DNA from: Calditrichota bacterium
GTDB taxonomy: Bacteria > Zhuqueibacterota > Zhuqueibacteria > Zhuqueibacterales > Geothermadaptataceae
DNA length: 64,000 nt
Direction of reading: 5' to 3'
NCBI GenBank assembly: GCA_008501765.1
Contig: QQUE01000014.1
Location: forward strand, 1-64,000
The notes under the pieces were generated by a model. That model was not told the DNA's origin and did no database searches. It saw nothing but the letters and a program-made list of their open reading frames with translations. Below are positions 6,638-55,982 of the stretch, one piece after another. The position numbers and the translations under genes were made by a program. How positions within the stretch are numbered: the stretch's first letter is position 1; every line of letters starts with the position of its first letter.

Positions 6638-7495
6638 ATGAAAATCCAATTCAAGTGTATGGTAATTCTTTCATTATTCCTGTCCGGTGTCATGGCTTTA
6701 GGTCAGGATGAAGGAGAAAAACTGTTTAAGCAAGTTTGTGTCGCCTGTCACACAATAAACGATGGAAAGTTGGTAGGTCCGGATTTAGCAGGCGTGCATT
6801 TACGCCGGTCGGAAGAATGGCTTCTGAAATTTATCAGATCTTCTCAATCGGTGGTTCAAACCGGGGATCCTGTTGCCGTAGCCTTGTTCGAAGAATTCAA
6901 TAAAATTCCTATGCCGGATAATGCTTTCACCGAAGATCAAATCCGTAAAATTATCGCCTATATTGCTTCAAACAGTCCAGGAGGCCCGGGAGCGGCAGGA
7001 ACTGGTGGTGTTAGCCCTGCAACCGGCAAATTTTCAAACCAATCATTGCAAGGAGATGCCAGTAACGGGGAAAAGTTATTTACCGGCAATGTGCGGTTGA
7101 GCAATGGCGGTCCTTCCTGCATTTCCTGCCACAACGTAAAAAATGACAAAGTAATTACCGGTGGAATTTTAGCAAAAGATTTAACAGATGTATATACACG
7201 CCTTACGGCTGCAGGTGTCCAGGCAATCATAGGCAACCCTCCCTTCCCTGCAATGAGTCAAGCTTACCCCGGTAAATCGTTGCAAGCACAGGAAATAAGT
7301 GATATCACAGCTTTTTTAAAACTGACTGACGACATCAAAAAAAACCAAGAGGGCACAAATTATGGCCTAACTCTATTGCTATCTGGATTGTGCGGTGCAG
7401 TCGTCCTCTTATTGATATTTAAAGGAATTCATAGCCGGTCGAAACGCGGCAGTATCAATCAGCACATATATGATCGTCAGTTAAAATCAATTTGA
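6638..7495 (+). CDS. narC: Membrane-anchored diheme cytochrome c, NarC-like
   Basis: Exported 285-residue protein: a signal peptide (about 1-22, cleavage near ALG-QDE), then two class I cytochrome c domains with CVACH (34-38) and CISCH (161-165). Likely axial Met residues follow each (for example KIPMPDNAF). Near the C-terminus is a single membrane span (about 242-264) and a basic tail. In Thermus a diheme cytochrome NarC is encoded at the head of narCGHJIK and helps attach the nitrate reductase and carry electrons. Gene order here (narC-G-H-J-I-K) is the same, which is the main reason for the name. The two heme domains are joined by a Gly/Pro/Ala-rich linker (about 118-140). Confidence 0.85.
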
Positions 7496-7517
7496 ACAGA
7501 TACCTAACTTTGGAATA

Positions 7518-10500
7518 ATGATTATGAGTTGGATCGAAGACGTAATATCGCCACAAACCCGCCAGTGGGAAGAATTTTATAAAAACCGTTTTCAACACGA
7601 TAAAGAAGTTCGCAGTACGCATGGTGTAAACTGCACTGGAGGATGTTCCTGGAAAATACATGTAAAAGAGGGAATTGTTGTATGGGAAACGCAGCAGGTA
7701 GATTATCCATTATTGGAAGATGGCTTGCCGCCTTACGAACCAAGAGGGTGCCAGCGAGGCATTTCATTTTCCTGGTATTTATATAGCCCTTTACGCATCA
7801 AATATCCTCTGATTAGAGGTGCACTAATCGATGCATATCGGGAAGAGAAAGAAAAATCAGGTGATCCCATAACTGCCTGGGAAAACTTGCAAAAAAATTC
7901 TGAGAAACGTGCCGCTTATCAGAATGCACGCGGGAAAGGGGGCTTTCGCCGTGTGAGCTGGGATGAAATATTGGAAATTATGGCTGTTTCCAATATTTAC
8001 ACCGCTAAAAAATATGGCCCTGATCGCGTTATCGGATTTTCGCCAATTCCAGCGATGTCGATGCTGAGCTATGCTGCCGGAAGTCGTTTTCTCCAGCTAT
8101 TTGGTGGAGTGAACTTGAGTTTTTACGATTGGTATTGCGATTTACCCCCCGCTTCCCCGGAGATTTGGGGTGAGCAAACAGATGTCGGCGAAAGCGCGGA
8201 TTGGTACAATGCAAAATTTATCGCTGTTCTGGGCGCCAATTTAAATATGACGCGAACACCTGACACTCACTTTTTCGCCGAAGCCCGCCACAACGGTACC
8301 AAGGCTGTTGTCTTTTCACCGGATCTGAATATGGTGGCAAAATATGCAGACCAATGGGTGCCTTTACACGCCGGTAGCGACGGCGCTTATTGGATGGCGG
8401 TAACTCATGTTATTTTGAAAGAATTTCATCATCAACAAAAAACACCTTATTTCATTGAATATGCCAAGAAATATACCGACAGCCCTTTTTTGGTTGAGCT
8501 CATAAAAGATGGCGATGGCTACAAAGCCGGTCAACTAATCCGTGCTAATCGAATTAAAAAGTATAAAGACGTCACCAATGGTGAGTGGAAATTTCTCAAT
8601 ATTGACGAATCATCCGGTCAACCTGTTATGCCAAAGGGAAGTATGGGGCATCGCTGGGACGAGAAGCAGGGCAACTGGAATATGAAGTTCGAGGACGGTG
8701 AAGACAACGGCGCATACAATCCAACTTTATCATTCCTGGAAAAGCATGATGCTGTTCACCAGGTTGAGTTTACTGAATTCGGCATGAATTCAAAACAAAT
8801 GCGTGGTGTTCCTGTTCGCTATCTCGAAACTGACGATGGTGAGAAAATTGCAGTTACCACGGTTTACGATTTAATTATGGGACAATACGGTGTTGGCCGC
8901 GGTTTGGAGGGCGCTTATCCGGAAGATTATTTTGATAAAAATGCGGCTTATACCCCGGCATGGCAAGAAATTTTTACCGGTGTTGATGGCAAGACTGTCA
9001 TTGGTTTTGCGCGTGAATGGGCAAAAACGGCCATTGCAACTGAAGGCAAATGCATGATTATCATCGGGGCGGGAATTAATCACTGGTACCATAATAATCT
9101 TATTTACCGCTCCGGTATTATGGCACTGATGTTATGCGGCTGCGTTGGTAAAAATGGAGGTGGACTCAATCACTATGTGGGACAGGAAAAACTCGCACCG
9201 ATGGATTCATGGAGCACGATTGCGCTGGCGAAGGATTGGGTTGACAGTGTTCGTGTTCAACAAGCGCCGTTGTGGCATTATCTCAATACCTGCCAGTATC
9301 GCTACGATGGCAACTTTTCCGCTTACAATACCACACCGGATAATGAACTCACCCGGGGACACAATGCGGATTTGATTTATAAGTCTGTTCGCAATGGCTG
9401 GATGCCGTTTTATCCGCAGTTTGATAAAAACACATTGGAGCTTTCGAAAGAAGCGATTGCAGAAGGGGCAAAAAACGATGATGACATCAAAAAATATGTC
9501 CTGGATAAGTTAAAATCCAAAGAGTTGAAATACGCTGTTGGGGATCCTGACGCCGAAATTAATCACCCGAGAGTATGGTACATTTGGCGAGGCAATGCTT
9601 TGATGGGAAGTATGAAAGGACACGAGTATTTGCTTAAACATTATCTCGGAACCCACTCCAATGCAATCGGTGAAGACATGGCCGATCAAAAGCCAAAAGA
9701 AGTGCAATGGCACGATGTTGCTCCAGTTGGCAAATTAGATCTGGTTGTCGATCTCAATTTCCGGATGGACTCTTCAGCGCTATATTCCGATATCGTTCTT
9801 CCCGCTGCATCCTGGTATGAAAAGGCTGACCTGAACAGCACCGATATGCATTCTTTCATTCATCCGCTCTCGGCGGCGATTGCTCCGGTGTGGGAAGCAA
9901 AAACGGATTGGGATATTTTCAAAGAAATCGCACGCAAAACGAGTGAACTGGCGAAGACGTATTTAGCAGAACCACAAAAAGACATAATTACTGCGCCATT
10001 AACACACGACTCTGCCGATGAAATTTCTCAACCGAAGATGCAAGATTGGTACAAGGATGAATGCGAAGCAATCCCCGGTAAAACCATGCACAAAATCGCT
10101 GTCGTCGATCGTGATTATACACGGATTTACGAAAAGTTTATTGCTTTTGGTGACAAAGTTCGTGCAAATGGGTTGGGCGCTCACGGCAACAATTATCAAT
10201 GCGATGACGCCTACGATGAAATGATTGAGTCCAATCATTTCCCGTTAGTTGATCTGGATGGCAAAAAATATCCATCACTGAAAGAGGACACACAGGCAGC
10301 AAATGTATTGCTGCACATGTCAACTTTGACTAATGGAAAACTCACTGTTCGCGCTTATAAAGATGCTGAAAGACGCACCGGATTGGATCTTGTTGATCTT
10401 GCAAAAGGCAGCGAAGACGTAAAAATCACTTATCAGGAATTACAGGCGCAGCCAAGACGCTACAACACGTCACCATTGTGGTCAGGATTGATGAATGACG

Positions 10501-11144
10501 GCCGGGCCTACTCTGCCTTTACCTACAACGTGGAGCGCCTGGTTCCCTGGAGAACATTAACAGGCCGCCAGCATTTCTATCTCGATCACGAAATGTATCT
10601 GAAATTCGGTGAGCACCTGCCAACTTATAAACCATCGCCACGCTGGCAAGCCTATGGCGATTTGCGTGAGACACTCAAAAACGAAGATGCCAAAGTACTC
10701 AACTGCCTAACGCCACACGGTAAGTGGCATATTCACTCCACCTACTGTGACAACCTGCGCATGTTGACCTTATCGCGTGGCGGCGAGCCGTGCTGGATCA
10801 GCGAAGTGGACGCAAAAGAACTCGGCATCGAGGACAACGACTGGGTTGAAGTTTATAACGACCACGGTGTTTATTGCACCCGCGCCGTTGTCAGCACCCG
10901 AATTCCGGTTGGCGTTTGCATTGTTTATCATGTTCCGGAAAGAACCATTGGCATTCCCAAATCGCAAGTCCGCGGAAACAAACGCGCTGGGGGGCACAAC
11001 AGTTTCACCCGAATTCACTTAAAACCAAATTTATTGGCTGGAGGCTATGGGCAGTTTTCTTATCACTTTAATTATTGGGGCCCAACGGCTGTAAATCGTG
11101 ATACCCATGTGGTGATAAAGAAAATGACGAAAGTTGTGTATTGA
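7518..11144 (+). CDS. narG: Respiratory nitrate reductase alpha subunit
   Basis: Catalytic molybdenum (bis-MGD) subunit that reduces nitrate to nitrite on the cytoplasmic face. 1208 residues, close to E. coli NarG (about 1247). The FS0 [4Fe-4S] ligand set His-x3-Cys-x3-Cys appears as HGVNCTGGC near residue 36, with the fourth Cys in PRGCQRG. The conserved active-site block [12 protein letters not shown] contains the Asp that ligates Mo in E. coli NarG. Further NarG landmarks are [21 protein letters not shown] and, near the end, the [13 protein letters not shown] region. No Tat signal is seen, as expected for the cytoplasmic-facing enzyme. Start may be the ATG at 7518 or 7524. Preceded by narC (22 bp) and followed by narH. 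Confidence 0.97.
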
Positions 11145-11194
11145 TAAATAATTAACTGTACTCAGAAAAATTTCTAAAATAGAGATGACTCATT

Positions 11195-12751
11195 ATGGAT
11201 GTTAGAGCACAAGTTTCGATGGTATTTCACCTGGACAAATGTATTGGCTGTCATACCTGCTCCATCGCTTGCAAAAATATCTGGACAGATCGCAAGGGTG
11301 CAGAATACATGTGGTGGAACAATGTAGAAACCAAACCTGGTACCGGGTACCCGACCAAATGGGAAGACCAGGATATTTATAAAGGTGGATGGCAAAAGAA
11401 AAACGGTGAACTCAAACTCAGAGGCGCAGGTAAAATGCGGGGTTTAGTGAATATTTTTCATAATCCCCATCTGCCGGTAATTGATGATTATTATGAGCCT
11501 TTCACTTATAAATACCTCGATCTGATCGAATCTCCGGCCATGAATGACCAGCCCACCGCGCGACCGGTTTCCCTCATCACTGGAAAGCCAATCGACATTA
11601 AAATGGGCCCCAACTGGGACGATGATCTTGGTGGCACCCCCGATTATGCGCGAAATGATCCGAATCTGCAAGGCCTCACCGCTGCAGAACAAGAGGCTAT
11701 GTTTCAATTGGAAAGAATGGCCTTTTTCTATCTCCCAAGAATTTGTAATCACTGCCTAAATCCTGCTTGTGTGGCATCCTGCCCATCAGGCGCTATTTAT
11801 AAACGTGGCGAAGACGGTGTTGTTCTCATCAACCAGGATGTTTGCCGTGCATGGCGGATGTGTGTTACGGCGTGTCCCTATAAAAAATCCTACTTCAATT
11901 GGGGCACTGGAAAATCAGAAAAATGTATTCTGTGCTATCCGCGTCTCGAATCCGGGCAGGCACCTGCATGCATGCATTCATGTGTCGGCAGAATCCGCTA
12001 TCTCGGTGTTATGCTTTATGATGCGGATAAAATCGAGAGCACGGTTGCCGGCAGTAAAAATGATCAGGATTTAGCACAACGCCAGCGCGATATGCTGCTC
12101 GACCCTTTCGATCCCGAAGTTATTCAGGCAGCGAAAGAAAACGGCGTTGCTGATTCCACGCTCAAAGCTGCCCAGGACTCGCCAGTATTCAAATTTGTAA
12201 AATTGTGGGGTTTGGCTTTACCACTGCACGCTGAGTTTGGCACTTTGCCTATGTTATTTTACGTGCCGCCGCTTCTGCCGGTAATGGCTTCGTTAAGCGA
12301 GGTGGATAATGATGAACACGCAAAAAATATGGATCCGGTCGCCAAACATTGGAATGATAACTGGCTTTACGATACCAGCACGGAAGAGCTGTGGGCTACC
12401 ATTGACAAAGCACGGCTGCCGCTCAAATATCTGGCAAACATGTTTAGCTGTGGTGATGAAAGCAAAGTAAAAGATGTTCTCAAAAAGCTCATGGCTGTGC
12501 GCATCTACCGGCGCTGGAAAACAGTGGGTGATATCGATGAAACCAAAGCCATGGCTGTATTAAATGACGTCGATCTCGCGCCGGAAACCATTGAGGATAT
12601 CTATTATTTAACTTCACTGGCCAAATTCGATGACCGCTTCGTAATTCCGGCTGCTCACCGCGAACAAGCCATTGAAATGCTTGAATTTACCGGCGATGCA
12701 AAAGGCTCTGCTGGTTTTGGAGTAACAGAAAAACCAAGGAGAGGCTGGTAG
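11195..12751 (+). CDS. narH: Respiratory nitrate reductase beta subunit
   Basis: Electron-transfer subunit (518 residues) linking NarI hemes to NarG through four Fe-S clusters. Four cysteine groups are visible: CIGCHTCSIAC (about 18-28), CNHCLNPACVASC, CRAWRMCVTAC and CILCYPRLESGQAPACMHSC. In the third group a Trp replaces one Cys (CRAWRMC), the hallmark of the NarH [3Fe-4S] cluster. MDVRAQVSMVFHLDKCIGCHTC is the usual NarH N-terminus apart from length. The gene follows narG by 50 bp and is followed by narJ after 7 bp. Confidence 0.97.
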   Translation: MDVRAQVSMVFHLDKCIGCHTCSIACKNIWTDRKGAEYMWWNNVETKPGTGYPTKWEDQDIYKGGWQKKNGELKLRGAGKMRGLVNIFHNPHLPVIDDYYEPFTYKYLDLIESPAMNDQPTARPVSLITGKPIDIKMGPNWDDDLGGTPDYARNDPNLQGLTAAEQEAMFQLERMAFFYLPRICNHCLNPACVASCPSGAIYKRGEDGVVLINQDVCRAWRMCVTACPYKKSYFNWGTGKSEKCILCYPRLESGQAPACMHSCVGRIRYLGVMLYDADKIESTVAGSKNDQDLAQRQRDMLLDPFDPEVIQAAKENGVADSTLKAAQDSPVFKFVKLWGLALPLHAEFGTLPMLFYVPPLLPVMASLSEVDNDEHAKNMDPVAKHWNDNWLYDTSTEELWATIDKARLPLKYLANMFSCGDESKVKDVLKKLMAVRIYRRWKTVGDIDETKAMAVLNDVDLAPETIEDIYYLTSLAKFDDRFVIPAAHREQAIEMLEFTGDAKGSAGFGVTEKPRRGW

Positions 12752-12758
12752 GCAAATT

Positions 12759-13448
12759 ATGGTAAGTTCATTTGAACAATATGACCGGCTTGCAGATTTG
12801 TTGGTCTATCCCGGACCCGATTTCAAAAGTAGAGTGAAAAATGCGTATGAATATTTGGAAAAGCCCTATCCCGAAGCGGCGGTCCATTTAAAAGATTTTG
12901 CTGATTTTATCGCCAACGCTACACAAATCGAATCCGAAGAGCTATACACACGCTCTTTCGATGTGCAGGCCGCAACAACTCTGGATATTGGTTACGTGCT
13001 TTTCGGTGATGATTACAAGCGTGGCGCTGTTTTGGTGGGCTTAAATGGTGAGCACAAAGAAGCAGGCATCGATTGTAGCGGTGAATTGGCCGATCATCTG
13101 CCCAATGTTTTACGACTGCTTTCCAAAATGGAAAAACCGGATTTACGCATGGAATTGATCGAGAAAATAGTTGCTCCGGCGGTGAAGAAAATAATCGAAG
13201 AATTTGAGCCGAATAAAATCGAGAGCAAGGAAGTCGTATACAAAAAGCATCATAAGACCATAATTGAACGTTCTGCAGAGTATGGAACGATCTATCAGTG
13301 CCCATTGAAAGCTGTGTATTGCGTATTGAGAGAAGATTTTAATTTCAAAGTGATGGAAATGCCGCCGCAGGGTGCAGATTTTGTTAAATCTGTTGGAACT
13401 GAAATGAAAATTGAATCCGAAAACCATTCCCAGGAAAGGCAAATATGA
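12759..13448 (+). CDS. narJ: Nitrate reductase molybdenum cofactor assembly chaperone
   Basis: Cytoplasmic NarJ/TorD-family chaperone that holds apo-NarGH for Mo-cofactor and FS0 insertion. 229 residues, all-alpha composition, with the family features YPGPDFKSRV near the N-terminus and SEELYTRSFDVQ in the middle, plus the HLPNVLRLLSKM block. Position between narH and narI is canonical. Its stop overlaps the narI start by 4 bp. Confidence 0.92.
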   Translation: MVSSFEQYDRLADLLVYPGPDFKSRVKNAYEYLEKPYPEAAVHLKDFADFIANATQIESEELYTRSFDVQAATTLDIGYVLFGDDYKRGAVLVGLNGEHKEAGIDCSGELADHLPNVLRLLSKMEKPDLRMELIEKIVAPAVKKIIEEFEPNKIESKEVVYKKHHKTIIERSAEYGTIYQCPLKAVYCVLREDFNFKVMEMPPQGADFVKSVGTEMKIESENHSQERQI

Positions 13449-14176
13449 TGGCTGTTTTAGATAATTTTCTATTCGTGGGATTGCCCTACGCCTCATTGCT
13501 TATTTTTTTAGTAGGCACAATTTACCGATACAAAGCCACTAAATTCAATTACTCTTCCCTTTCATCACAATTTTTAGAGGGTGGAAATCTCTATTGGGGA
13601 TCGGTTCCTTTTCACTGGGGTATCCTTTTTTTGTTCTTTGGTCACCTGATCGCTTTTGTAATCCCACATTCTGTTTTGGCCTTTAACAGCGAACCACTAA
13701 GACTGCTTATTCTTGAAATTGTCGCTTTTATATTTGGCCTGATTACATTATTTGGATTAATCATGCTATTGGCGCGCCGGATTTCCAATCCGCGTTTAAA
13801 ACCAGTGACAAACTGGATGGATATTACTATCGAAGGATTATTAATTACCGAAGTGATTTTAGGGATATTGGTTGCCTATACTGCCCGTTGGGGATCATCC
13901 TGGTTTGCGGCAGTTCTCACACCGTATTTATATTCCATCTTCCTCTTGCAGCCGGATATTGCAGCAGTAAGCGCCATGCCACTTCTGGTTAAATTACATA
14001 TTATTGGCGCCTATTTAATCTTTCTGCTAATTCCCTTTTCAAGACTGGTGCATCTATTGGTGGTTCCACTCCATTATATCTGGCGTCCGTATCAACGGGT
14101 TCTCTGGAATTGGTCAAGAAGAAAAGTGCGCAACCCTGCAACCGATTGGACAATCACAAAACCGGAAAATAATTAA
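13445..14176 (+). CDS. narI: Respiratory nitrate reductase gamma subunit (cytochrome b)
   Basis: Integral membrane diheme cytochrome b that oxidises quinol and passes electrons to NarH. 243 residues with five hydrophobic spans. Candidate heme ligands: His in VPFHWGILFLFFGHLIAF (span 2) and in KLHIIGAYLIFLLIPFSRLVHL (span 5), matching the four-histidine pattern of E. coli NarI. The C-terminal tail is basic. Translationally coupled to narJ (ATGA overlap), with narK starting 2 bp after its stop. Confidence 0.95.
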   Translation: MMAVLDNFLFVGLPYASLLIFLVGTIYRYKATKFNYSSLSSQFLEGGNLYWGSVPFHWGILFLFFGHLIAFVIPHSVLAFNSEPLRLLILEIVAFIFGLITLFGLIMLLARRISNPRLKPVTNWMDITIEGLLITEVILGILVAYTARWGSSWFAAVLTPYLYSIFLLQPDIAAVSAMPLLVKLHIIGAYLIFLLIPFSRLVHLLVVPLHYIWRPYQRVLWNWSRRKVRNPATDWTITKPENN

Positions 14177-14178
14177 TA

Positions 14179-15636
14179 ATGGAAAGACAAATAACCGCAA
14201 AGTCCCATAAAATTCTATTTTTTAACACTTTTGCTTTTACGGTTTGCTTTGCTGCATGGATGTTGAATGGCGTTTTGGTTACTTTTCTGGCAGAAAACCA
14301 AATTTTTTCCTGGACTCCGGTTCAAATAGGTTGGTTATTGGGAGTTCCGGTCTTAACCGGCGCGGTCTTTCGTTTGCCGGCAGGTTTATTAACCGATCGT
14401 TTTGGTGGGAAACCGGTGTTCAGCATATTACTATTTCTCAGTGCCTTCCCCATGTTTTTGCTATCCTATGCCGACAGTTATACGGCGTTTATTCTCTGTA
14501 GTTTTGGATTTGGTTTAACCGGGGCAAGTTTTGCGGTCGGAATTGCGTTTACTTCAGTCTGGTATCCAAGAAAATGGCAAGGAACGGCTTTAGGGATTTT
14601 CGGGGCTGGTAATCTCGGCGCGGCTTTAACAACGCTGTTTGCCCCAACCCTGCTCACTGCACTCACACAAAATGGCGATAATCTTGATAATTGGCGGCAA
14701 TTGCCAGTTCTCTACGCCTTGATTTTGCTGGCTACCGGAGTTCTTTTTTTACTTTTCACCGATAACAAGAAACCCGCAGTCAATAATAAAACTTTGGCGC
14801 AAATGTTGGCGCCATTAAAAAAAACAAGGGTGTGGCGGTTTGGTTTATTCTATTTTTTGGTTTTTGGTTGCTTTGTAGCATTTTCTCAGTGGCTCGTGCC
14901 TTATTATGTCAATGTATATTATTTGCCGTTGATCACAGCAGGACTGCTGGCATCAACATTTAGCCTTCCCGCTGGTATAATACGCGCGGCCGGAGGCTGG
15001 ATGTCGGATCGCTGGGGCGCGAATAAAGTTATGCGCTGGGTATTGGGCCTTTCGGTAATCACCAGTTTATTGCTGATTGTTCCAAAGATGGAAATAACTT
15101 CCCCCGGTAAAGGTGTAATGGCAAAAAAGAGCGGTATTGTCACGTTCGTTTCTGATTCCCTTATTTCTGTCGGTAATGTGAGCTATTCGCTCATTTTAAA
15201 AGGCAATCATTTAGATAATGCAGATGAGAGAGTGCTGATATTTCCGGCCAAAGATGTGTGGCAGCAGCCCGTCGTCCAGGTTGGCGACGAGGTAAGTAAA
15301 AAACAATTATTAGCCAGGGGATTTACGCTGATTTATTTCCAGGCCACGATTTGGGTGTTTGTCGGCCTGGTGATTCTTCTCGGCAGTGTGTGGGGTATTG
15401 GCAGCGCCGCAGTATACAAGTTTATTCCTGATTTTTATCCTGATGAAGTAGGCGTTGTCGGTGGAATGGTCGGGGTGTTGGGCGGGTTAGGCGGCTTTTT
15501 TAGCCCCATCATTTTCGGATATTTATTGGAAGGTATTGGCGTATGGACGAGCTGCTGGATGTTTATTCTGCTACTGTCAGCCGTTTGCCTTATTTGGTTG
15601 CAAAAATCAACTGTTGATCAGCAAGCTGCAAAATAA
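14179..15636 (+). CDS. narK: NarK-type nitrate/nitrite MFS transporter with extra periplasmic domain
   Basis: Major facilitator of the NarK/NNP family for nitrate uptake and/or nitrite export. 485 residues with about 12 spans. The N-terminal half carries GWLLGVPVLTGAVFRLPAGLL and the nitrate-signature-like FGFGLTGASFAVGIAF; the C-terminal half carries VVGGMVGVLGGLGGFFSPI. Between spans 9 and 10 is an insertion of roughly 75 residues (about 305-382) that normal NarK lacks. It contains SPGKGVMAKKSGIVTFVS and VVQVGDEVSKKQLLARG, a pattern like a biotinyl/lipoyl barrel-sandwich fold. By MFS topology this loop faces the periplasm. Last gene of the nar operon; starts 2 bp after narI. Confidence 0.92.
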   Translation: MERQITAKSHKILFFNTFAFTVCFAAWMLNGVLVTFLAENQIFSWTPVQIGWLLGVPVLTGAVFRLPAGLLTDRFGGKPVFSILLFLSAFPMFLLSYADSYTAFILCSFGFGLTGASFAVGIAFTSVWYPRKWQGTALGIFGAGNLGAALTTLFAPTLLTALTQNGDNLDNWRQLPVLYALILLATGVLFLLFTDNKKPAVNNKTLAQMLAPLKKTRVWRFGLFYFLVFGCFVAFSQWLVPYYVNVYYLPLITAGLLASTFSLPAGIIRAAGGWMSDRWGANKVMRWVLGLSVITSLLLIVPKMEITSPGKGVMAKKSGIVTFVSDSLISVGNVSYSLILKGNHLDNADERVLIFPAKDVWQQPVVQVGDEVSKKQLLARGFTLIYFQATIWVFVGLVILLGSVWGIGSAAVYKFIPDFYPDEVGVVGGMVGVLGGLGGFFSPIIFGYLLEGIGVWTSCWMFILLLSAVCLIWLQKSTVDQQAAK

Positions 15637-15763
15637 TATAATGCTATGAATAAAATACATTATCAAACAAACCTGAATAATTCTCACGCAGGCACATCAG
15701 GTATACTTTAAAACTTAATCAAATTAAATAAATTGACTCAAACATAAATTAAAAGGATAACCA

Positions 15764-16501
15764 ATGGATACAAAACTCCATGATGCAGCAAATAAAACCG
15801 TGGCCCAATTAGTAACAGAGGATTACCGCAAGGCAGAGGTTTTTAAAAAATTTGGTATTGATTTCTGTTGCGGAGGAAAGCGAACTGTACACGATGTCTG
15901 CGAGGAAAAAGGTCTTGACCTGAAATTAGTACTTCAAGAACTGGAAAAAAGTGGATCAGCTTCGCAATCGCAACAAGAGAACGCTGATCGATGGGAACTG
16001 GGTTTTCTGGCCGATTATATTGTCAATGTACATCATAAATATGTTAGTGAGAACATTCCACTCCTGCTCGAATTTAGCGGCAAAGTTGCCCGGGTGCACG
16101 GTGAAAATTACGCAGAGGTAGTGAAGATTGCAGGATTATTTGAGGAAGTAGCCGCTGAACTACAGCAACACCTTTTAAAGGAAGAACGTATTTTATTCCC
16201 CTATATTAAACATTTAGAAAATATTCAAAAAACAGGCGAGCCCTTTTCAGCGCCACCGTTTGAATCTGCAAAAAATCCAATAGCGATGATGGAAGCGGAA
16301 CATGAGCGGGCCGGCAGCGCGCTGGCACAAATCGACCAACTCAGCAACAATTACACGCCGCCCGAAGATGCATGCAATACATTCCGGATATCCTATTCTA
16401 AATTAAAAGAATTTGAAGAAGATTTGCACCGCCATGTCCACCTGGAAAACAACATCCTTTTCCCCAAAGCCATTGCGTTAGAAGTGCAGTTACAATCATA
16501 G
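15764..16501 (+). CDS. ric: Iron-sulfur cluster repair di-iron protein (RIC/ScdA/YtfE family)
   Basis: 245-residue cytoplasmic protein. An N-terminal ScdA_N/DUF542 domain (about 8-65) carries the conserved KFGIDFCCGGKRTV motif. A four-helix hemerythrin-like domain (about 80-240) supplies di-iron ligands: VNVHHKY, VHGENY, LQQHLLKEERILFPYI, EAEHERAG and LHRHVHLENNILFP. RIC proteins repair Fe-S clusters and handle nitric oxide damage. Position 127 bp after narK fits a nitrosative-stress role. A good AAAAGGA site precedes the ATG. No strong terminator is seen between narK and this gene, so read-through is possible. Confidence 0.93.
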   Translation: MDTKLHDAANKTVAQLVTEDYRKAEVFKKFGIDFCCGGKRTVHDVCEEKGLDLKLVLQELEKSGSASQSQQENADRWELGFLADYIVNVHHKYVSENIPLLLEFSGKVARVHGENYAEVVKIAGLFEEVAAELQQHLLKEERILFPYIKHLENIQKTGEPFSAPPFESAKNPIAMMEAEHERAGSALAQIDQLSNNYTPPEDACNTFRISYSKLKEFEEDLHRHVHLENNILFPKAIALEVQLQS

Positions 16502-16516
16502 TAGAAAGAATTTTAA

Positions 16517-17185
16517 ATGAACCCTTTAAAAGGAATGAATAAACAAGATCCGTTAAAACGTCTGGTTGAGAAACAGTCCGCCCAGAAAGAATTTTCACCA
16601 ATGGACCCACCGGACGCGTATATGCCACCGAAAACGGATTCTATCCCGTATGAAAAAATGAGTCCGTTTCTTCAGGTTTTAATGGATGAACATGTTGTTT
16701 GTCTGAACAAACTCGATTTGTTTGAAGAAGCTCTCCTCCGGCTGCAAAAGAACGGTCTGGTTGCAGATCACCAGGCAGATCCAGGTTTAAGAGATTTTTT
16801 TTCATTTTTGGATAAAAATATTGTAGCTCACAATCAAAAAGAAGAAAAGATATTGTTTCCATTGTTACAGGAGCGCCTTTTGCAAAAAGGCGAGCATAGT
16901 CAGGAACCAAATCCTGTAACAGCGGTCGATATGTTGGAAGACGATCATATCAGATTAATGCAATTGGCCGCAGTAACTTTTAATTTTTTAGGATTAGCAG
17001 TCCGTTTGCCGGATCCTGCTTCACAGGTGATGGTTCTGGATGCTGCGATAGAACAGGGGAAATCGTTAGTCGAGATATTACGCCTGCACATATTTCGGGA
17101 AGACAATGTGGCTTTTTCGTTAGCAGCTAAATTGATAACTGTGAAAGAATTTCAGGAGATGGAAAAACGACTTCCGTCCGAGTGA
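16517..17185 (+). CDS. Hemerythrin-domain protein
   Basis: 222 residues. A proline-rich, non-globular N-terminus (about 1-55) precedes a hemerythrin HHE-like four-helix bundle with candidate iron ligands in MDEHVVCL, IVAHNQKEEKILFPLL, LEDDHIRLM and LRLHIFREDNVAF. It lacks the DUF542 Cys-Cys motif of the upstream RIC protein, so it is a distinct paralogue. Starts 15 bp after ric, so almost certainly cotranscribed. Likely binds O2 or NO or supports cluster repair; the exact role is unknown. A decayed copy of its C-terminal helix lies 0.7 kb downstream. Confidence 0.85.
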   Translation: MNPLKGMNKQDPLKRLVEKQSAQKEFSPMDPPDAYMPPKTDSIPYEKMSPFLQVLMDEHVVCLNKLDLFEEALLRLQKNGLVADHQADPGLRDFFSFLDKNIVAHNQKEEKILFPLLQERLLQKGEHSQEPNPVTAVDMLEDDHIRLMQLAAVTFNFLGLAVRLPDPASQVMVLDAAIEQGKSLVEILRLHIFREDNVAFSLAAKLITVKEFQEMEKRLPSE

Positions 17186-20129: not shown

Positions 20130-20753
20130 CTACCGATCGCCGAATGGAACGGTTACACCTGCAACTATTTGCAAACCGCGATTTTTCACATCAGATTCCC
20201 CTTCCGCACTATTGATATTTGTCATCCCAAGTACATACCGTGCTTCAGCGAAATACGTTTTATTGCCATGCGGGAACTTGGCACCACCGCCGAATCCCAA
20301 TCCAAAATCCATCCCGCTGGTGTCGTCTTTTTGATCAAGTTCCGGGCCATTTTTAACATCAATTTTTGCGCTCATCAAAATTCCAATACTGGGTCCGGCC
20401 ATGACATACGGCACCATCGATCCATCTTTTTGAAAAGTATAACGAATCATCAATGGAATCTCAAAATAATGAACTTTAAAAGTAATTTCGTCACCATCTT
20501 CTTTTATTACTCCACCTTTTTGTAGAAACATTGGTTCAGCATGAAAATCGAATTGCCCGGATAATGGGCGATCGACAACCGCGCCGAAGCCAAAGCCAAG
20601 ACGGCTGGAATACTCTTCACTGCTGGGCTCAGGATCGACATTGATACTCGCGATATTGATATCGATAGCCCCGCCGAGTGTCCACTGGGCGTGCAGAGGA
20701 ACGACAAATAACATTGTGAGACAAAGAGCTGAAATTAAATTAATAGCTTTCAT
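20130..20753 (-). CDS. Outer-membrane beta-barrel protein (PorT-like)
   Basis: 207 residues. A signal peptide (about 1-22, ending PLHAQ) is followed by alternating beta-strands typical of an eight-stranded barrel: LGFGFGAVVDRPL, YFEIPLMIRYTF, VPYVMAGPSIGILMSAK, FGLGFGGGAKFP and a terminal strand IVAGVTVPF. The FEIPLMIRY and YVMAGPSIG motifs are those of the PorT/OMP_b-brl_2 group. Role unknown; possibly structural or adhesin-like. Transcribed alone and leftward. Confidence 0.82.
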   Translation of the reverse strand: MKAINLISALCLTMLFVVPLHAQWTLGGAIDINIASINVDPEPSSEEYSSRLGFGFGAVVDRPLSGQFDFHAEPMFLQKGGVIKEDGDEITFKVHYFEIPLMIRYTFQKDGSMVPYVMAGPSIGILMSAKIDVKNGPELDQKDDTSGMDFGLGFGGGAKFPHGNKTYFAEARYVLGMTNINSAEGESDVKNRGLQIVAGVTVPFGDR

Positions 20754-24596: not shown

Positions 24597-25469
24597 ATGA
24601 AATATTTAATCGCTAACCCTGAAATTATCGCAGCAATCATTGGTGCAGTGATTAGCCTAATTGGGATACTGGTAAAAGTTTACTTCTCATATCGAAGAAC
24701 GCCGGCTGCTGAATCAAATCAGGGAATGATGGCACGGGAAATTTCCACCGGACGATTTAGTATTGGGATTTTAGTTGTTTTGGTACTCTTGCTTCTCGTC
24801 TCAACGGGCCAGTTTTATTTTATTTTTATAAAACCTACAATTGTTTCGTTATCTGAAACAGCCGGGCCCGACGTTGTAACGAAAGAAGGATTTGTGACCC
24901 CAGAAAAACACCAAGTTAATTTATTAAAAATACAAAGTCTTGATTCTACAATTTCTGAGTTGGCAGATCAAAAGGCTGAGCTAACCACCAAAATTCTCAA
25001 CATGCAAAATCAGCACAGACAGGACTCCCTGAAATTAGTCAAGGCAGACAAAACAATCGAAAAGTTAACGGTTTCGAATGAGAAATCCAACTCACAATTT
25101 ACCAAGGCTGAATTAAAACGCCTTTCAGTTGAAGACACTTTATCTGCAGAAAGAAAGGAGATGGGAAATTTAAAGAAACAGCGAAACAGCCTTGTCGATG
25201 TCATTATTTTCACCAATAAACCTGCCGGTGATTGCACCAAAGGAATATCCAGAAAATTATCCCAATTGGGATTTCCCAAGGCAGAGATCAGTTTATTAAC
25301 CGGGATAAATAGCAACGAAATTATATATTTTCAACCACAAACAAAAAAAATCGCGGAAGCTTCTGCCGATTCGTTAAATAAGATAAATTGTCTTGGACAG
25401 AACTTCGAAGTGACCAAACAATCCAACAAAGAAAATGCCCATAAAATTTTTATTCGCCTGCAAAACTAA
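24597..25469 (+). CDS. Hypothetical two-span membrane protein with coiled coil
   Basis: 290 residues: two hydrophobic spans (about 8-30 and 53-78) with a short basic loop between. A predicted coiled coil follows (about 105-195, rich in Lys/Glu/Gln/Ser). The C-terminal globular part (about 200-290) begins VIIFTNKPAGDCTKGISRKL and recalls LytR_C/SPOR-like small domains, but the match is weak. It heads a tight rightward gene set; the next gene starts 18 bp after its stop. No family can be named with confidence. Confidence 0.6.
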   Translation: MKYLIANPEIIAAIIGAVISLIGILVKVYFSYRRTPAAESNQGMMAREISTGRFSIGILVVLVLLLLVSTGQFYFIFIKPTIVSLSETAGPDVVTKEGFVTPEKHQVNLLKIQSLDSTISELADQKAELTTKILNMQNQHRQDSLKLVKADKTIEKLTVSNEKSNSQFTKAELKRLSVEDTLSAERKEMGNLKKQRNSLVDVIIFTNKPAGDCTKGISRKLSQLGFPKAEISLLTGINSNEIIYFQPQTKKIAEASADSLNKINCLGQNFEVTKQSNKENAHKIFIRLQN

Positions 25470-25487
25470 GTGAAAAGGGGTTCTAAA

Positions 25488-26276
25488 ATGGCTTGTTTTA
25501 AATTAAAAAAGCAAATTATAATTATATTCAAACTGAACCGTTTTCTGCTGATCTTTTTGTTTGTATCCAATTGCAGCAGCCCGTTGCGGAAGATGCCTAT
25601 TCAAATGGCGCGTACGACGCAGATCGATTTTTACAAGCAATATTATGATTTTGGTCCAGCTAAAAATATTGGGAAAGCGCAGGATATTGTTGCCAGTTTA
25701 ATGGGATCGAAAGAAACATGGGCGCACTTCACAAAAAGATACGGCCGAACAAATGAGCAATTTTTGTCGGATATTGAAAAGAAACGATTTTATGTTCAAG
25801 GCTCAATTATTTTAACGACATATCTGAGTCCCAAAAACCACGACATGCTTTTTGTCGACGGCACAGGGCGTTATTCAGTTATTTATCAACGTGCGTCGAA
25901 AAACGAGATATTGTTTACAGCGGATTACTTCATAAAAAACATTCCATATTCGATCAAAAATGATATTTTAACTAAAGGCATTTTGCAAGTTAAAATTTCG
26001 CAAGTGCTGATTCGCCATTTCAATATTGCCGGGCAACCCAACATCAATCACTTGCTTGAGGATATTCCACTCTATTTTGAGATAAGATTGGAAAAAGCAG
26101 GAAAGAACGACCAGGTTTTTCGCATAAAATATGTTGGAGAAGACAATCAGCCCTTTTCACACCCTGTCTATTTTAAGGGTGATAAAATCGGTTTTATGCA
26201 GTTTGATAATTTACCGAACAATAACGACAAATTGTTTGACCTTCGCGGTCGTAACTTCTTAAGAAAAGACTATTAA
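25488..26276 (+). CDS. Hypothetical exported protein, possible lipoprotein
   Basis: 262 residues from the ATG at 25488, which has an AAGGGG site 7 bases upstream; a GTG at 25470 directly abuts the previous stop. The N-terminus has basic residues then a hydrophobic stretch ending FLFVSNCSS, a possible but non-ideal lipobox with Asn at -1. The rest is mixed alpha/beta with many aromatic residues (HFTKRYGRTNEQFLSDIEKK; VYFKGDKIGFMQF). No known family recognised. Likely acts in the envelope with its operon neighbours. Confidence 0.6.
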   Translation: MACFKLKKQIIIIFKLNRFLLIFLFVSNCSSPLRKMPIQMARTTQIDFYKQYYDFGPAKNIGKAQDIVASLMGSKETWAHFTKRYGRTNEQFLSDIEKKRFYVQGSIILTTYLSPKNHDMLFVDGTGRYSVIYQRASKNEILFTADYFIKNIPYSIKNDILTKGILQVKISQVLIRHFNIAGQPNINHLLEDIPLYFEIRLEKAGKNDQVFRIKYVGEDNQPFSHPVYFKGDKIGFMQFDNLPNNNDKLFDLRGRNFLRKDY

Positions 26277-26305: not shown

Positions 26306-27919
26306 ATGAATAGCAACTGGCGCCCATTAATTTTTGCTGCCATTTCCTTTTTCCCGGCCTTTTGCTTTGGCCAGGAAAACGAAATTCAGAATTACAAAGA
26401 TATCTACTTCGAATATCAGACCGTCGATTCACTCCAAATGAGTCCGCTGGTTATTTGTGTACCGGGATTTACCCAGCACAATCGCAGTCCAGAATTTCAA
26501 TTATTAAAATCCTGGCTCCGCTCGAAAGGCTACTCCTGCCTTATCATGAATCCGCCGCAACACGGTGAAATCTACCACAAAAGCAGAATTTACACCTGGG
26601 GGGAGCGCGAAGTCGACGATTTGCTTGCGCTCGCGCTGGAAAAACTGCCCGTTTTTGAAAATCACCGGGAAGTCCATCTTCTGGGATTTTCAATCGGGGC
26701 GAAAATTGTCTTAAAATTCGCCGCTCACGAAAAAATTAAATCCAAAATAAAATCCGTGATTGCCATAGCAGCGCCATTTCAGGTTGGGGCCATCAACGCG
26801 CAAAGTTTCGGCAAAGGCCTGGAAGGCCTGTTTTCGAGTTCCTCCGCTCGAAAACGGTCGAGTTTCATGCGTATGAGCTACATGGTTTTCCCGGGCATGG
26901 TGCGGGCATTGTTAATCAATAAAGAAACCCCGGCACTGGAAGTTCCTCAAATTGCGGCGCCGGTGCTTCTGCTGCATGGCGCCAATGATTGGCTGACAAA
27001 ATCCTATCATTCAAAGCTCCTGTTTGAAAGAGGTCGCGCGAATCAGGCAATTTCCTTCATCGCATTAAATACGCGAATTCACGCAGAGGATATGCTCACC
27101 CGTGGAGACTCCGCGTTACAAGCAACTTTTTTTGAGGTAATATCAAACTGGTTCGATTATAATAAAAAAACAAACCTGGATAGCGCTAAAACCACATTTA
27201 ACAACGAATTCACCAATCTCGTTAAACGAAATGAAAATCCCGATGGCATCATATTTCCGGTTGAAAAAATTACACAACTGAGCAGCCCCACTTTAAACAA
27301 TTTGAATTCAAATATCTGGTCGACACCTGCCAGTCAAAATCCAGCCGGATTTTCATTGCAAGGCAGAATCAGTACCAATGGTGATTCAAGGCATTTTATC
27401 AGCATGGGAGCAACGCGTTCGACTAGTATTTTTAAATATTTTCAAGGTGGCTATGCTTTTGCTAAAAATGAAGGCAAAGATTTCTCAAATCATGAAGCCT
27501 ATTTTTCCCTTTACTATCCGGTGGGTTCATTTTTGTGGATGAGAAAACTCACTTATATTTATGGAATCGAGGAAAAAAATCGACGCAGCATTGTGTCGGC
27601 AGACCTTGCTTTTCTGATTCTTGATTTTCAGTTAAACTTCGGCGATATTCGTTCAAGGGATGTGCATGAATGGCAGATTAATTTTAATTTTCCACTCATC
27701 AGCCCGGCAGATGGTCTCTATTTTTGGGGCATAAATTATAGCCGTTTTTTCAATTCGATACCAGCTGCAAATAGTTTCTCGACTTATTTTTATTTTGGCC
27801 CCAGATTAAGCCGGCATCGGGTGCAAATGTTTTGTGAATATCAGTTTTTACAACCTGCCCGCAATTTAAGTGACTCGCGCTGGCAGGTTGGCGTCGCAAT
27901 GAATTTTTTCGAACATTAA
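26306..27919 (+). CDS. Secreted alpha/beta-hydrolase with C-terminal outer-membrane-barrel-like domain
   Basis: 537 residues. A signal peptide (1-22, CFG-QEN) leads an alpha/beta-hydrolase fold (about 45-285). It has an oxyanion-like VCVPGFTQHN loop, nucleophile elbow GFSIG (Ser129), a candidate acid Asp in LLHGANDWLT (about 228) and a His in NTRIHAED (about 258). After a linker (about 285-340) the last 200 residues are strand-like with alternating aromatics (SLQGRISTNG; SLYYPVGSFLWMRKL; YFYFGPRLSRHRVQMFCEYQFL; WQVGVAMNFFEH) and end near an aromatic residue, like an outer-membrane barrel. The substrate is unknown (lipid ester or peptide possible). The fusion is inferred by eye and would need structure prediction. 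Confidence 0.65.
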   Translation: MNSNWRPLIFAAISFFPAFCFGQENEIQNYKDIYFEYQTVDSLQMSPLVICVPGFTQHNRSPEFQLLKSWLRSKGYSCLIMNPPQHGEIYHKSRIYTWGEREVDDLLALALEKLPVFENHREVHLLGFSIGAKIVLKFAAHEKIKSKIKSVIAIAAPFQVGAINAQSFGKGLEGLFSSSSARKRSSFMRMSYMVFPGMVRALLINKETPALEVPQIAAPVLLLHGANDWLTKSYHSKLLFERGRANQAISFIALNTRIHAEDMLTRGDSALQATFFEVISNWFDYNKKTNLDSAKTTFNNEFTNLVKRNENPDGIIFPVEKITQLSSPTLNNLNSNIWSTPASQNPAGFSLQGRISTNGDSRHFISMGATRSTSIFKYFQGGYAFAKNEGKDFSNHEAYFSLYYPVGSFLWMRKLTYIYGIEEKNRRSIVSADLAFLILDFQLNFGDIRSRDVHEWQINFNFPLISPADGLYFWGINYSRFFNSIPAANSFSTYFYFGPRLSRHRVQMFCEYQFLQPARNLSDSRWQVGVAMNFFEH

Positions 27920-53597: not shown

Positions 53598-55982
53598 TTA
53601 TTTTACCATAAAATTTCGGGTGATTATGATTGTGTTTTCCGAGCGATCGATAGCGCTAAATTGAAATACATGCTGGCCCTTTTCCAGCGCATTTCGCGGT
53701 TTATATTGAACCAGTCCGGTTTCTGGATCGTATTCGGCAATTGCCTTTTTTCCATCGATCAGCATTAGCAGTGATTCTTCGGATGAAAAGCCGGTCTGTT
53801 CATCTTTCGCGCGAACTTTAAAAAGCGGCCTTTCCGGCACTATCTCACCTTCTTTCGGTGTAAAAACGCGCACTTCCGGAGTCGTATCATCTTTGCGGAT
53901 AGCAAACTCTTCCAGGCTAAAAACTTTCGCGGAAATCTGCTTTTTAACCGTGTCAATTTTATTGTCGATAAATGCCCAGCGTTTGGGAGTTTTGTAATAA
54001 ATCCCCAGTTTTTCGGGGTTGGAAAAATCGGCAGGATAGGACATCGTTACTGTTGCACCCCGGTTCATCACAACATCCTGAGGTTCGGCAACATAAACGC
54101 CCCCAATGGCATCTTTGTCCTTTCTATGTGGCGACTTGAGAAAATATGCGCGGCCAAAAATATCATCATAAAGAGATGATTTGTGAAAATCGATTCTAAT
54201 TTTTCCATCTGCAGAAGCAAAAAAATCAGATGTTTTGTGTTGAATATGAAAATTATCAAAGCTCGAATCAGCAGCAATATTTTCCCCGGTAAGGGTCTCC
54301 CCGCTGACCAAAATACGGACATTGGCGCCATTAAAATCATACAGCGATACTGGAACAATATATTCCATTTGTCCGGACTGGATTATTTCAGGGTAGCTGG
54401 TACTGCGGTCACTTGATGTTAACTCGACAATGGGTTTTTTTCGCAAAGGATGGGTCGCACTTATTTTAAAACGTACCCAGTGATCATAATAATCTGATTC
54501 AAATTTGAAAGTGGCTGCTCTGCCTGATTTATCATTTGGTACATTCAAAAATGCCGGCCAGGATTTTAGTCCGAAATCGTTTAAGGCGACAATTTGCACA
54601 GATTTTTGTGTGTGCAGTGTTCCTTTGTGAAATAATCGAAATGGAAGCGATTCGTGGGCATCTTCGGTCGTTCCATTTAAATAAGGCTTGATTCTACTGG
54701 TAAAAAGCCAGTTGTTTTTCTTTTCTACTGATTTTTTCCATAGATGCAAAAGATCGACTGTTCCGCTATTTGTGGTCTCCACCCCATTAAGAAAAACATG
54801 CCCATCAGCAATCGAGTATTGAGGTGTAATCTGATATTTTTTCCCGGCAATTAACTCGCCTGTCACTTTTGTCGCATTACCAAAAAAATCTTCAACGATG
54901 ACTTCTAAAGCATGTCTTCCCGAGCTTAAATAAAGAGGAGCAGCACTTTCATCCATGCCATTTCCATAACTTATTTGCTGCATGGCTGAATCATTTATTA
55001 CTGCATGCGCTTCTTTCGGAGACTTGCCGGCATCAAAGAGCAAACGGCCTTTTTCAGGTCCGCGATAATCATAAAAAGACAGCGGATTGGCCGGATCAAG
55101 AAAGAGTCGATAATATTTGCCAAAACCGCGGCGGCGCAATCGATACTCCCGGTCAAGGTCCATAAAACGGTTGTTGGCGTAGCTAAATTTATCGAATTGG
55201 GATGTGAAATAATGATGGCCATCGATATACAGACTGAGTTTGTAAACACCGAACGCATTGGTTACAGTACCGCTTTTATCAAAAGCACGGATGCCGACAC
55301 CGACTTCGCCATCGAAAGAAACCGGTTCTGTGAGTTCAAAATGGCCCTTCTTTATTTTTTTCAGTGACGCGATGTGAGTAACGAAATCATCATTTATCCG
55401 TGTGCCAAATTTCAAGGGAATAAATGCGATCTTTCTGACGGTCGGAGCGCGCACATCCTTGATTTTATATCCGCGAAGAAACGGATTAAATGGGCGATTT
55501 TTTGAATCACGAAGTTCAAAATGCAGATGGGGCACGCCAATTCCTGTTTCACCGCTGTAACCGAGAAAATCGCCTTTTTTAACTGGAAAAGCGGTAGCGC
55601 TTAAATAGCGGTCGACCCGGTATCTATTATTTTTCTGTTGTTCGTGATAAACGAAGTCCGACAAGGCTTTATTAAAACCGCTAAGGTGGGCAAATATAGC
55701 TATTTCACCCGTGTCCAGTTTTAGATAAACAGCCTTGCCATAGCCGGATGGCGAAACACGAATCCGGGAAACGTATCCGTCGCGCACAGCAAATATTTTA
55801 TAACCCGATTGGCCCCATGTTTTAATATCAATCGCTGCATGCAAGCGCCGCGGCCGATGCTCACCGAAAGCTGAGGTAATCCAATGGCTGGCATCGGTGG
55901 GCCAAAGGTATTCCTGGGCACTGGTCGTCATTGGAAGCAAGAATAAAAAAAGGCATATTTTTAATTGAATATTTCTTTGCAC
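53598..55982 (-). CDS. M23 family metallopeptidase, multidomain, exported
   Basis: 794 residues with a signal peptide (about 1-22). The LytM/M23 peptidase domain (about 30-175) has Zn ligands in RRLHAAIDIKTWG (H-x5-D type) and GVPHLHFELRD, and the loop AIFAHLSGF. The rest (about 180-794) is a string of beta-sandwich-like modules with Ig/fibronectin character (for example PEVRVFTPKEGEIVPERPLF). This M23 group usually acts on peptidoglycan cross-bridges or regulates amidases. Large all-beta C-terminal extension is known in FCB-group members. Confidence 0.9.
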   Translation of the reverse strand: MQRNIQLKICLFLFLLPMTTSAQEYLWPTDASHWITSAFGEHRPRRLHAAIDIKTWGQSGYKIFAVRDGYVSRIRVSPSGYGKAVYLKLDTGEIAIFAHLSGFNKALSDFVYHEQQKNNRYRVDRYLSATAFPVKKGDFLGYSGETGIGVPHLHFELRDSKNRPFNPFLRGYKIKDVRAPTVRKIAFIPLKFGTRINDDFVTHIASLKKIKKGHFELTEPVSFDGEVGVGIRAFDKSGTVTNAFGVYKLSLYIDGHHYFTSQFDKFSYANNRFMDLDREYRLRRRGFGKYYRLFLDPANPLSFYDYRGPEKGRLLFDAGKSPKEAHAVINDSAMQQISYGNGMDESAAPLYLSSGRHALEVIVEDFFGNATKVTGELIAGKKYQITPQYSIADGHVFLNGVETTNSGTVDLLHLWKKSVEKKNNWLFTSRIKPYLNGTTEDAHESLPFRLFHKGTLHTQKSVQIVALNDFGLKSWPAFLNVPNDKSGRAATFKFESDYYDHWVRFKISATHPLRKKPIVELTSSDRSTSYPEIIQSGQMEYIVPVSLYDFNGANVRILVSGETLTGENIAADSSFDNFHIQHKTSDFFASADGKIRIDFHKSSLYDDIFGRAYFLKSPHRKDKDAIGGVYVAEPQDVVMNRGATVTMSYPADFSNPEKLGIYYKTPKRWAFIDNKIDTVKKQISAKVFSLEEFAIRKDDTTPEVRVFTPKEGEIVPERPLFKVRAKDEQTGFSSEESLLMLIDGKKAIAEYDPETGLVQYKPRNALEKGQHVFQFSAIDRSENTIIITRNFMVK

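Follow-up and report, generated by a model that had tools for sequence, protein, structure and literature searches.

An exported alpha/beta-hydrolase joined to a predicted outer-membrane beta-barrel of no known family in Calditrichota

Enzymes carried on outer-membrane barrels fall into few known classes, namely the EstA type, the PlpD type and OMPLA. The present study describes a gene from a Calditrichota bacterium (assembly GCA_008501765.1), located in a window of 64,000 nucleotides (contig QQUE01000014.1, positions 1 to 64,000), whose product resembles each of these classes in part. Like the type Va GDSL-lipase autotransporters EstA, ApeE and McaP, it has a signal peptide and an N-terminal enzyme of esterase type joined directly, with no beta-helix stalk, to a C-terminal barrel with 12 predicted strands; unlike them, its enzyme is of the Abhydrolase_1/S33 type with a GxSxG motif rather than GDSL/SGNH, its barrel has no PF03797 match, and a pore helix is not confidently predicted. 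With the type Vd patatin-like autotransporters PlpD and FplA it shares the combination of a lipolytic-type hydrolase and a C-terminal outer-membrane barrel on one chain, but it has a Ser-Asp-His triad as opposed to a Ser-Asp dyad, lacks their single POTRA domain, and has 12 predicted strands rather than 16. OMPLA (PldA), which hydrolyzes esters at the outer membrane, likewise has a barrel of 12 strands, but there the barrel itself carries the Ser-His-Asn active site, whereas the fusion has its active site in a domain of its own. The hydrolase fold and the order of the triad are those of monoacylglycerol lipases and S33-type esterases (human and Bacillus MGL, Pf2001, Est1E), which unlike the fusion are free-standing. 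Among the closest solved barrels by fold are KdgM-type small porins, the intimin beta-domain and PcoB, but these have no detectable sequence relationship to the fusion barrel and carry no comparable enzyme domain. Patatin, POTRA and Omp85 families gave no Pfam match in the fusion, and the known anchor families were shown, at the level of sequence profiles, to be absent from it. No description of this combination of hydrolase and barrel families was found in the open-licence literature. If true, the pairing of a canonical Ser-Asp-His alpha/beta-hydrolase with a 12-stranded barrel from an unnamed family would be a further and apparently independent solution, confined in the genomes searched to one poorly studied phylum. 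Anchoring an esterase-like enzyme in the outer membrane in this manner would be rare, and the protein would offer a natural scaffold for attaching esterases to membranes.

The gene (26306-27919) is a single intact frame of 537 codons, and its parts are given in Table 1. By eye its N-terminal hydrophobic segment resembles a signal peptide that can be cleaved, in which a canonical lipobox is lacking, and a hydrophobic N-terminus is also present in those orthologs in which this end is complete. In Pfam the hydrolase domain matched Abhydrolase_1 over residues ~25-290 (2.6e-10, 40.8 bits against a curated cut-off of 25.8), Hydrolase_4 (1.1e-9, 38.5 bits against 27) and Abhydrolase_6 (4.2e-6, also above its curated cut-off), and the full-length orthologs likewise gave hydrolase matches above cut-off. 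S129, D228 and H259 were invariant in each ortholog covering those positions; the nucleophile elbow is GFSIG in full-length members and DFSLG, with the serine kept, in one contig-end fragment (L011, from genome G002). An earlier reading of the sequence alone had called a signal peptide and a Ser-Asp-His hydrolase here, and these matches and the invariant triad bear out the hydrolase. That reading had also set the enzyme apart from GDSL-type autotransporters as a classic alpha/beta-hydrolase. The contrast holds at the level of family, as neither the hydrolase nor the full-length orthologs matched Lipase_GDSL in Pfam and all are instead canonical GxSxG hydrolases with Abhydrolase/S33 matches, but it is narrower than was stated, a review having used the term "alpha/beta-hydrolase fold" for the passengers of EstA and type Vd proteins as well (PMC6555100). 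When the full model was compared by Foldseek, the top matches were alpha/beta-hydrolases, led by the Pyrococcus esterase Pf2001, monoacylglycerol lipases and Est1E. Since these closest folds belong to esterases and monoacylglycerol lipases, the substrate is likely to be a lipid or a small ester. The overall architecture of signal peptide, canonical alpha/beta-hydrolase and then a C-terminal domain that models as a barrel is confirmed, the last part as a prediction.

Table 1. Position in the window of the fusion gene, its parts and the two genes preceding it
Feature	Position	Strand	Basis
Gene with N-terminal membrane segment(s) and coiled coil	24597..25469	+	Upstream of lipoprotein gene
Putative lipoprotein gene, co-occurring with the fusion	25470..26276	+	Homolog search, lipobox reading
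Whole gene, hydrolase-barrel fusion, 537 aa	26306..27919	+	ATG start, intact ORF; orthologs found
Signal peptide, ~residues 1-22, cleavage ~FCFG|QEN	26306..26371	+	Sequence reading
Alpha/beta-hydrolase domain, residues ~25-290	26378..27175	+	Pfam and Foldseek matches
Nucleophile Ser129 codon, in GFSIG (127-131)	26690..26692	+	Family alignment
Catalytic Asp228 codon, DWLT motif	26987..26989	+	Family alignment
Catalytic His259 codon, HAEDM motif	27080..27082	+	Family alignment
Linker / pre-barrel segment, residues 291-346	27176..27343	+	AlphaFold2: one helix (295-308), low pLDDT after it
Predicted 12-stranded outer-membrane beta-barrel, residues 347-536	27344..27913	+	AlphaFold2, Foldseek, strand alternation

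AlphaFold2 modeled the full protein (six-row alignment; pLDDT 64, pTM 0.56) as the hydrolase followed by 12 strands in residues 347-536, and residues 311-537 alone (five rows; pLDDT 73.5, pTM 0.75) gave the same 12 long strands, a prediction that rests on an alignment of five sequences. In the full model, pLDDT fell below 50 behind the pre-barrel helix, at 311-345. Aromatic residues make up 20% of the C-terminal domain compared with 11% of the hydrolase. Hydrophobic alternation between the two faces of the strands scored 33.5 compared with 19.8 +/- 4.2 in within-strand shuffles, of which 0.04% reached 33.5 (p ~4e-4), and the family average was reached by 0.06% of shuffles; as the strands were taken from the model of the same sequence, this is a consistency check and not fully independent. 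Outer-membrane barrels dominated the matches of the C-terminal model in a Foldseek comparison with the PDB, among them the intimin beta-domain (E 3e-5), Omp33, FapF, OmpG, PcoB, KdgM (TM 0.67 by target length), OMPLA and VhGalP; intimin, KdgM, PcoB and OMPLA are 12-stranded. The few matches in the top 50 that were not membrane barrels (a chain of photosystem II, a photocleavable fluorescent protein) had low TM-scores of 0.21-0.24. The better barrel matches had TM-scores of ~0.4-0.53 by query length and rmsd of 4.5-9 A, and because such scores are moderate the number of strands is better supported than the exact shape. Five members searched against Pfam at E up to 10 gave no family match to this domain, apart from a DUF5564 match at 0.087 in one ortholog that we regard as meaningless; there was no NCBIfam match, and the barrel profile matched no PDB sequence at E up to 10. 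Residues 347-536 are thus predicted, from these models, to form an outer-membrane beta-barrel with an even number of strands (12) and of no known family. The sequence-only reading had described some 200 strand-rich residues with alternating aromatics ending close to an aromatic residue, and had named a sandwich or propeller as the contrary outcome of structure prediction; neither fold was among the best Foldseek matches, and the strands, the aromatic content and the alternation were all recovered, but the terminal aromatic is not conserved. The query ends in ...MNFFEH and its orthologs in LYLFDR, FNFDEQ, VNVDEE and INLNER, such that some members but not others have an aromatic close to the end, and the last residue is H, R, Q or E. 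A C-terminal aromatic signature is common among outer-membrane barrels but not universal, and its absence is therefore not disqualifying.

Searching 82 genomes of the phylum with the full-length query identified the fusion in five species: its own (G000), G001 at 56% identity, G002, and G028 and G019, which belong to another family, at 41-42%. Both halves lie in one frame in four of the five, and in the fragmented assembly of G002 they lie on two contig ends. The earlier proposal of a hydrolase-barrel fusion, for which a search for homologues of like arrangement had been suggested, is therefore supported by AlphaFold2 and Foldseek and by conservation of the arrangement across genera of two families. 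The barrel profile found the same five species, all Calditrichota, and nothing else among 388 genomes that included members of other phyla, and the hydrolase profile found in 194 genomes the same five and three weak, ordinary hydrolases of 309-323 aa; with four or five rows, these profiles reach near relatives only. Within that reach there was neither a barrel relative without a hydrolase (388 genomes) nor a close hydrolase relative without a barrel (194 genomes), and a single-sequence scan of genome contigs returned only a record of the G002 type. Because neither half was found alone at close range, the fusion is, as far as sequence searches can show it, a stable unit within the genome sets searched. 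Several weaker candidates were rejected. A possible stand-alone barrel relative in G053 (E 0.045) was attributed to chance, being antisense to a gene for a PorV-like outer-membrane protein; a weak match in G046 contained two internal stops; and hydrolase-only matches in G034, G028, G019, G037, G119 and G143 were ordinary short hydrolases (frames of 260-323 aa) and not fusions.

Sec export and BAM-assisted insertion are established for outer-membrane proteins, and a barrel with an even number of strands has its N-terminus on the periplasmic side. The fusion chain would accordingly be exported by Sec, its barrel would be inserted into the outer membrane by the BAM machinery, and the folded hydrolase would remain in the periplasm, where its target could be an ester at the inner leaflet or close to it, or an ester that comes in through the barrel. 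The genome has 14 matches to the Omp85 family. The periplasmic facing is a default argument: since the N-terminus of the barrel would be periplasmic, the enzyme should remain in the periplasm unless there is evidence that it is translocated. On balance, the fusion is probably an exported, barrel-anchored, periplasm-facing esterase or lipase, possibly acting with the co-occurring lipoprotein, and we favor this over surface display, although the facing side, the substrate and the partnership with the lipoprotein and the coiled-coil membrane protein are what we infer. Display would have the hydrolase pass through or with the barrel to the cell surface and act outside, as in type Va EstA. The domain order and strand number do match classical autotransporters (PMC6555100), and the autotransporter barrels Hbp and BrkA appear among the Foldseek matches of the C-terminal domain, ranked below the leading ones. 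EstA, likewise built as an N-terminal enzyme followed by 12 strands, is located at the surface (PMC6555100; PMC9289746), and because of this a real minority share of our confidence is kept for display. It is nevertheless rather unlikely, as none of the five members matched PF03797 at E up to 10, the family was matched nowhere in the genome even though four other genomes of the phylum gave matches above cut-off when searched in the same way, and a pore-filling helix before strand 1 is not confidently predicted.

Conservation of the barrel bears on another alternative, that it specifically conducts either an ester substrate or the product released from it, with the attached hydrolase doing the processing in the periplasm. 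Mean column identity in the barrel is 57%, and invariant positions cluster in strands 4-9 (S401, P405, W411, R413, S431, D433, D440, Q442, Q457 and P463, among others). By our reading of the alternation phase in the predicted strands, the invariant polar residues S401, S431, D433, D440, Q442 and Q457 face inward, which argues that the barrel is under constraint. This conservation, the inward polar residues in several strands and the structural likeness to small substrate-specific channels (KdgM, VhGalP) would all suit an enzyme coupled to a channel, but barrels that do not conduct are also stabilized by internal polar networks, and linked uptake or catabolic genes were not recognized beside the fusion, so that we consider a channel improbable. 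Catalysis of the OMPLA type within the barrel was rejected, there being no invariant His in the barrel alignment and no match to the OMPLA profile. Least probable is that the C-terminal domain is some other strand-rich periplasmic domain and not a membrane barrel, for which the absence of a sequence match to any barrel family, the modest model confidence and the variable terminal aromatic could be cited but which is at odds with the 12 strands, the alternation and fold matches to outer-membrane barrels in nearly every case, the best including neither a sandwich nor a propeller.

Returning to the favored periplasm-facing enzyme, a possible partner is encoded nearby. The coiled-coil gene and the lipoprotein gene lie directly upstream of the fusion in the window; the pair (24597-26276) matches no Pfam family and was found, in the genomes searched, in only a few Calditrichota. 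The lipoprotein, which has the motif PIQMAR..QIDFYKQ and a lipobox that we read as canonical in three of four complete homologs, occurred among the 82 genomes in four of the five with the fusion (G000, G002, G019 and G028), was absent from the fifth, G001, and otherwise gave one partial match, in G037. In G002 (L011) the fusion again follows this pair, and in G019 it follows a pair of similar layout; in G028 such a pair is at another locus (L030), unlinked to the fusion. Sequence searches detected the coiled-coil gene in G000 and G002 only, its versions in G019 and G028 being called homologs by position and layout; the gene in this position in G019 (L019) gave a LytR_C match that fell short of the threshold (E 0.031). 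The co-occurrence of lipoprotein and fusion is suggestive of a functional link, bearing in mind that related genomes are not independent. That an unnamed barrel family with its own hydrolase makes up a coupled enzyme and channel, served by a dedicated lipoprotein and an inner-membrane coiled-coil partner, is a more elaborate proposal to which we give little credence. The window, G001 and G002 have a HAD phosphatase gene downstream of the fusion; G019 and G028 lack one there. In G019 (L019, 6423-10168) the order is lipoprotein, fusion, nitrilase; in G037 (L031, G037:C437, 1837-3040) the end of the lipoprotein gene adjoins a nitrilase-type gene with no fusion between them. The two layouts possibly reflect a natural event in which the fusion gene was gained or lost. 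The lipoprotein pair of G028 adjoins a gene (L030, 5453-9997, minus strand) for a protein of ~1514 aa in which IPT-like repeats and a C-terminal sorting-like tail were seen by eye.

Elsewhere in the window, a gene on the minus strand (53598-55982) encodes an exported protein of 794 aa; an M23 peptidase domain (1.4e-11) lies close to its N-terminus, and the long remainder matches no other Pfam family. A second, small outer-membrane barrel protein, unrelated to the fusion barrel, is encoded at 20130-20753 on the minus strand (OMP_b-brl_2, 1.8e-23). At 6638-17185 a block resembling a nitrate reductase operon was read by eye, with a cytochrome-like protein, large and iron-sulfur subunits, a chaperone, a membrane subunit and a transporter, followed by a protein that by eye resembles iron-cluster repair proteins and a hemerythrin-domain protein (1.1e-8).
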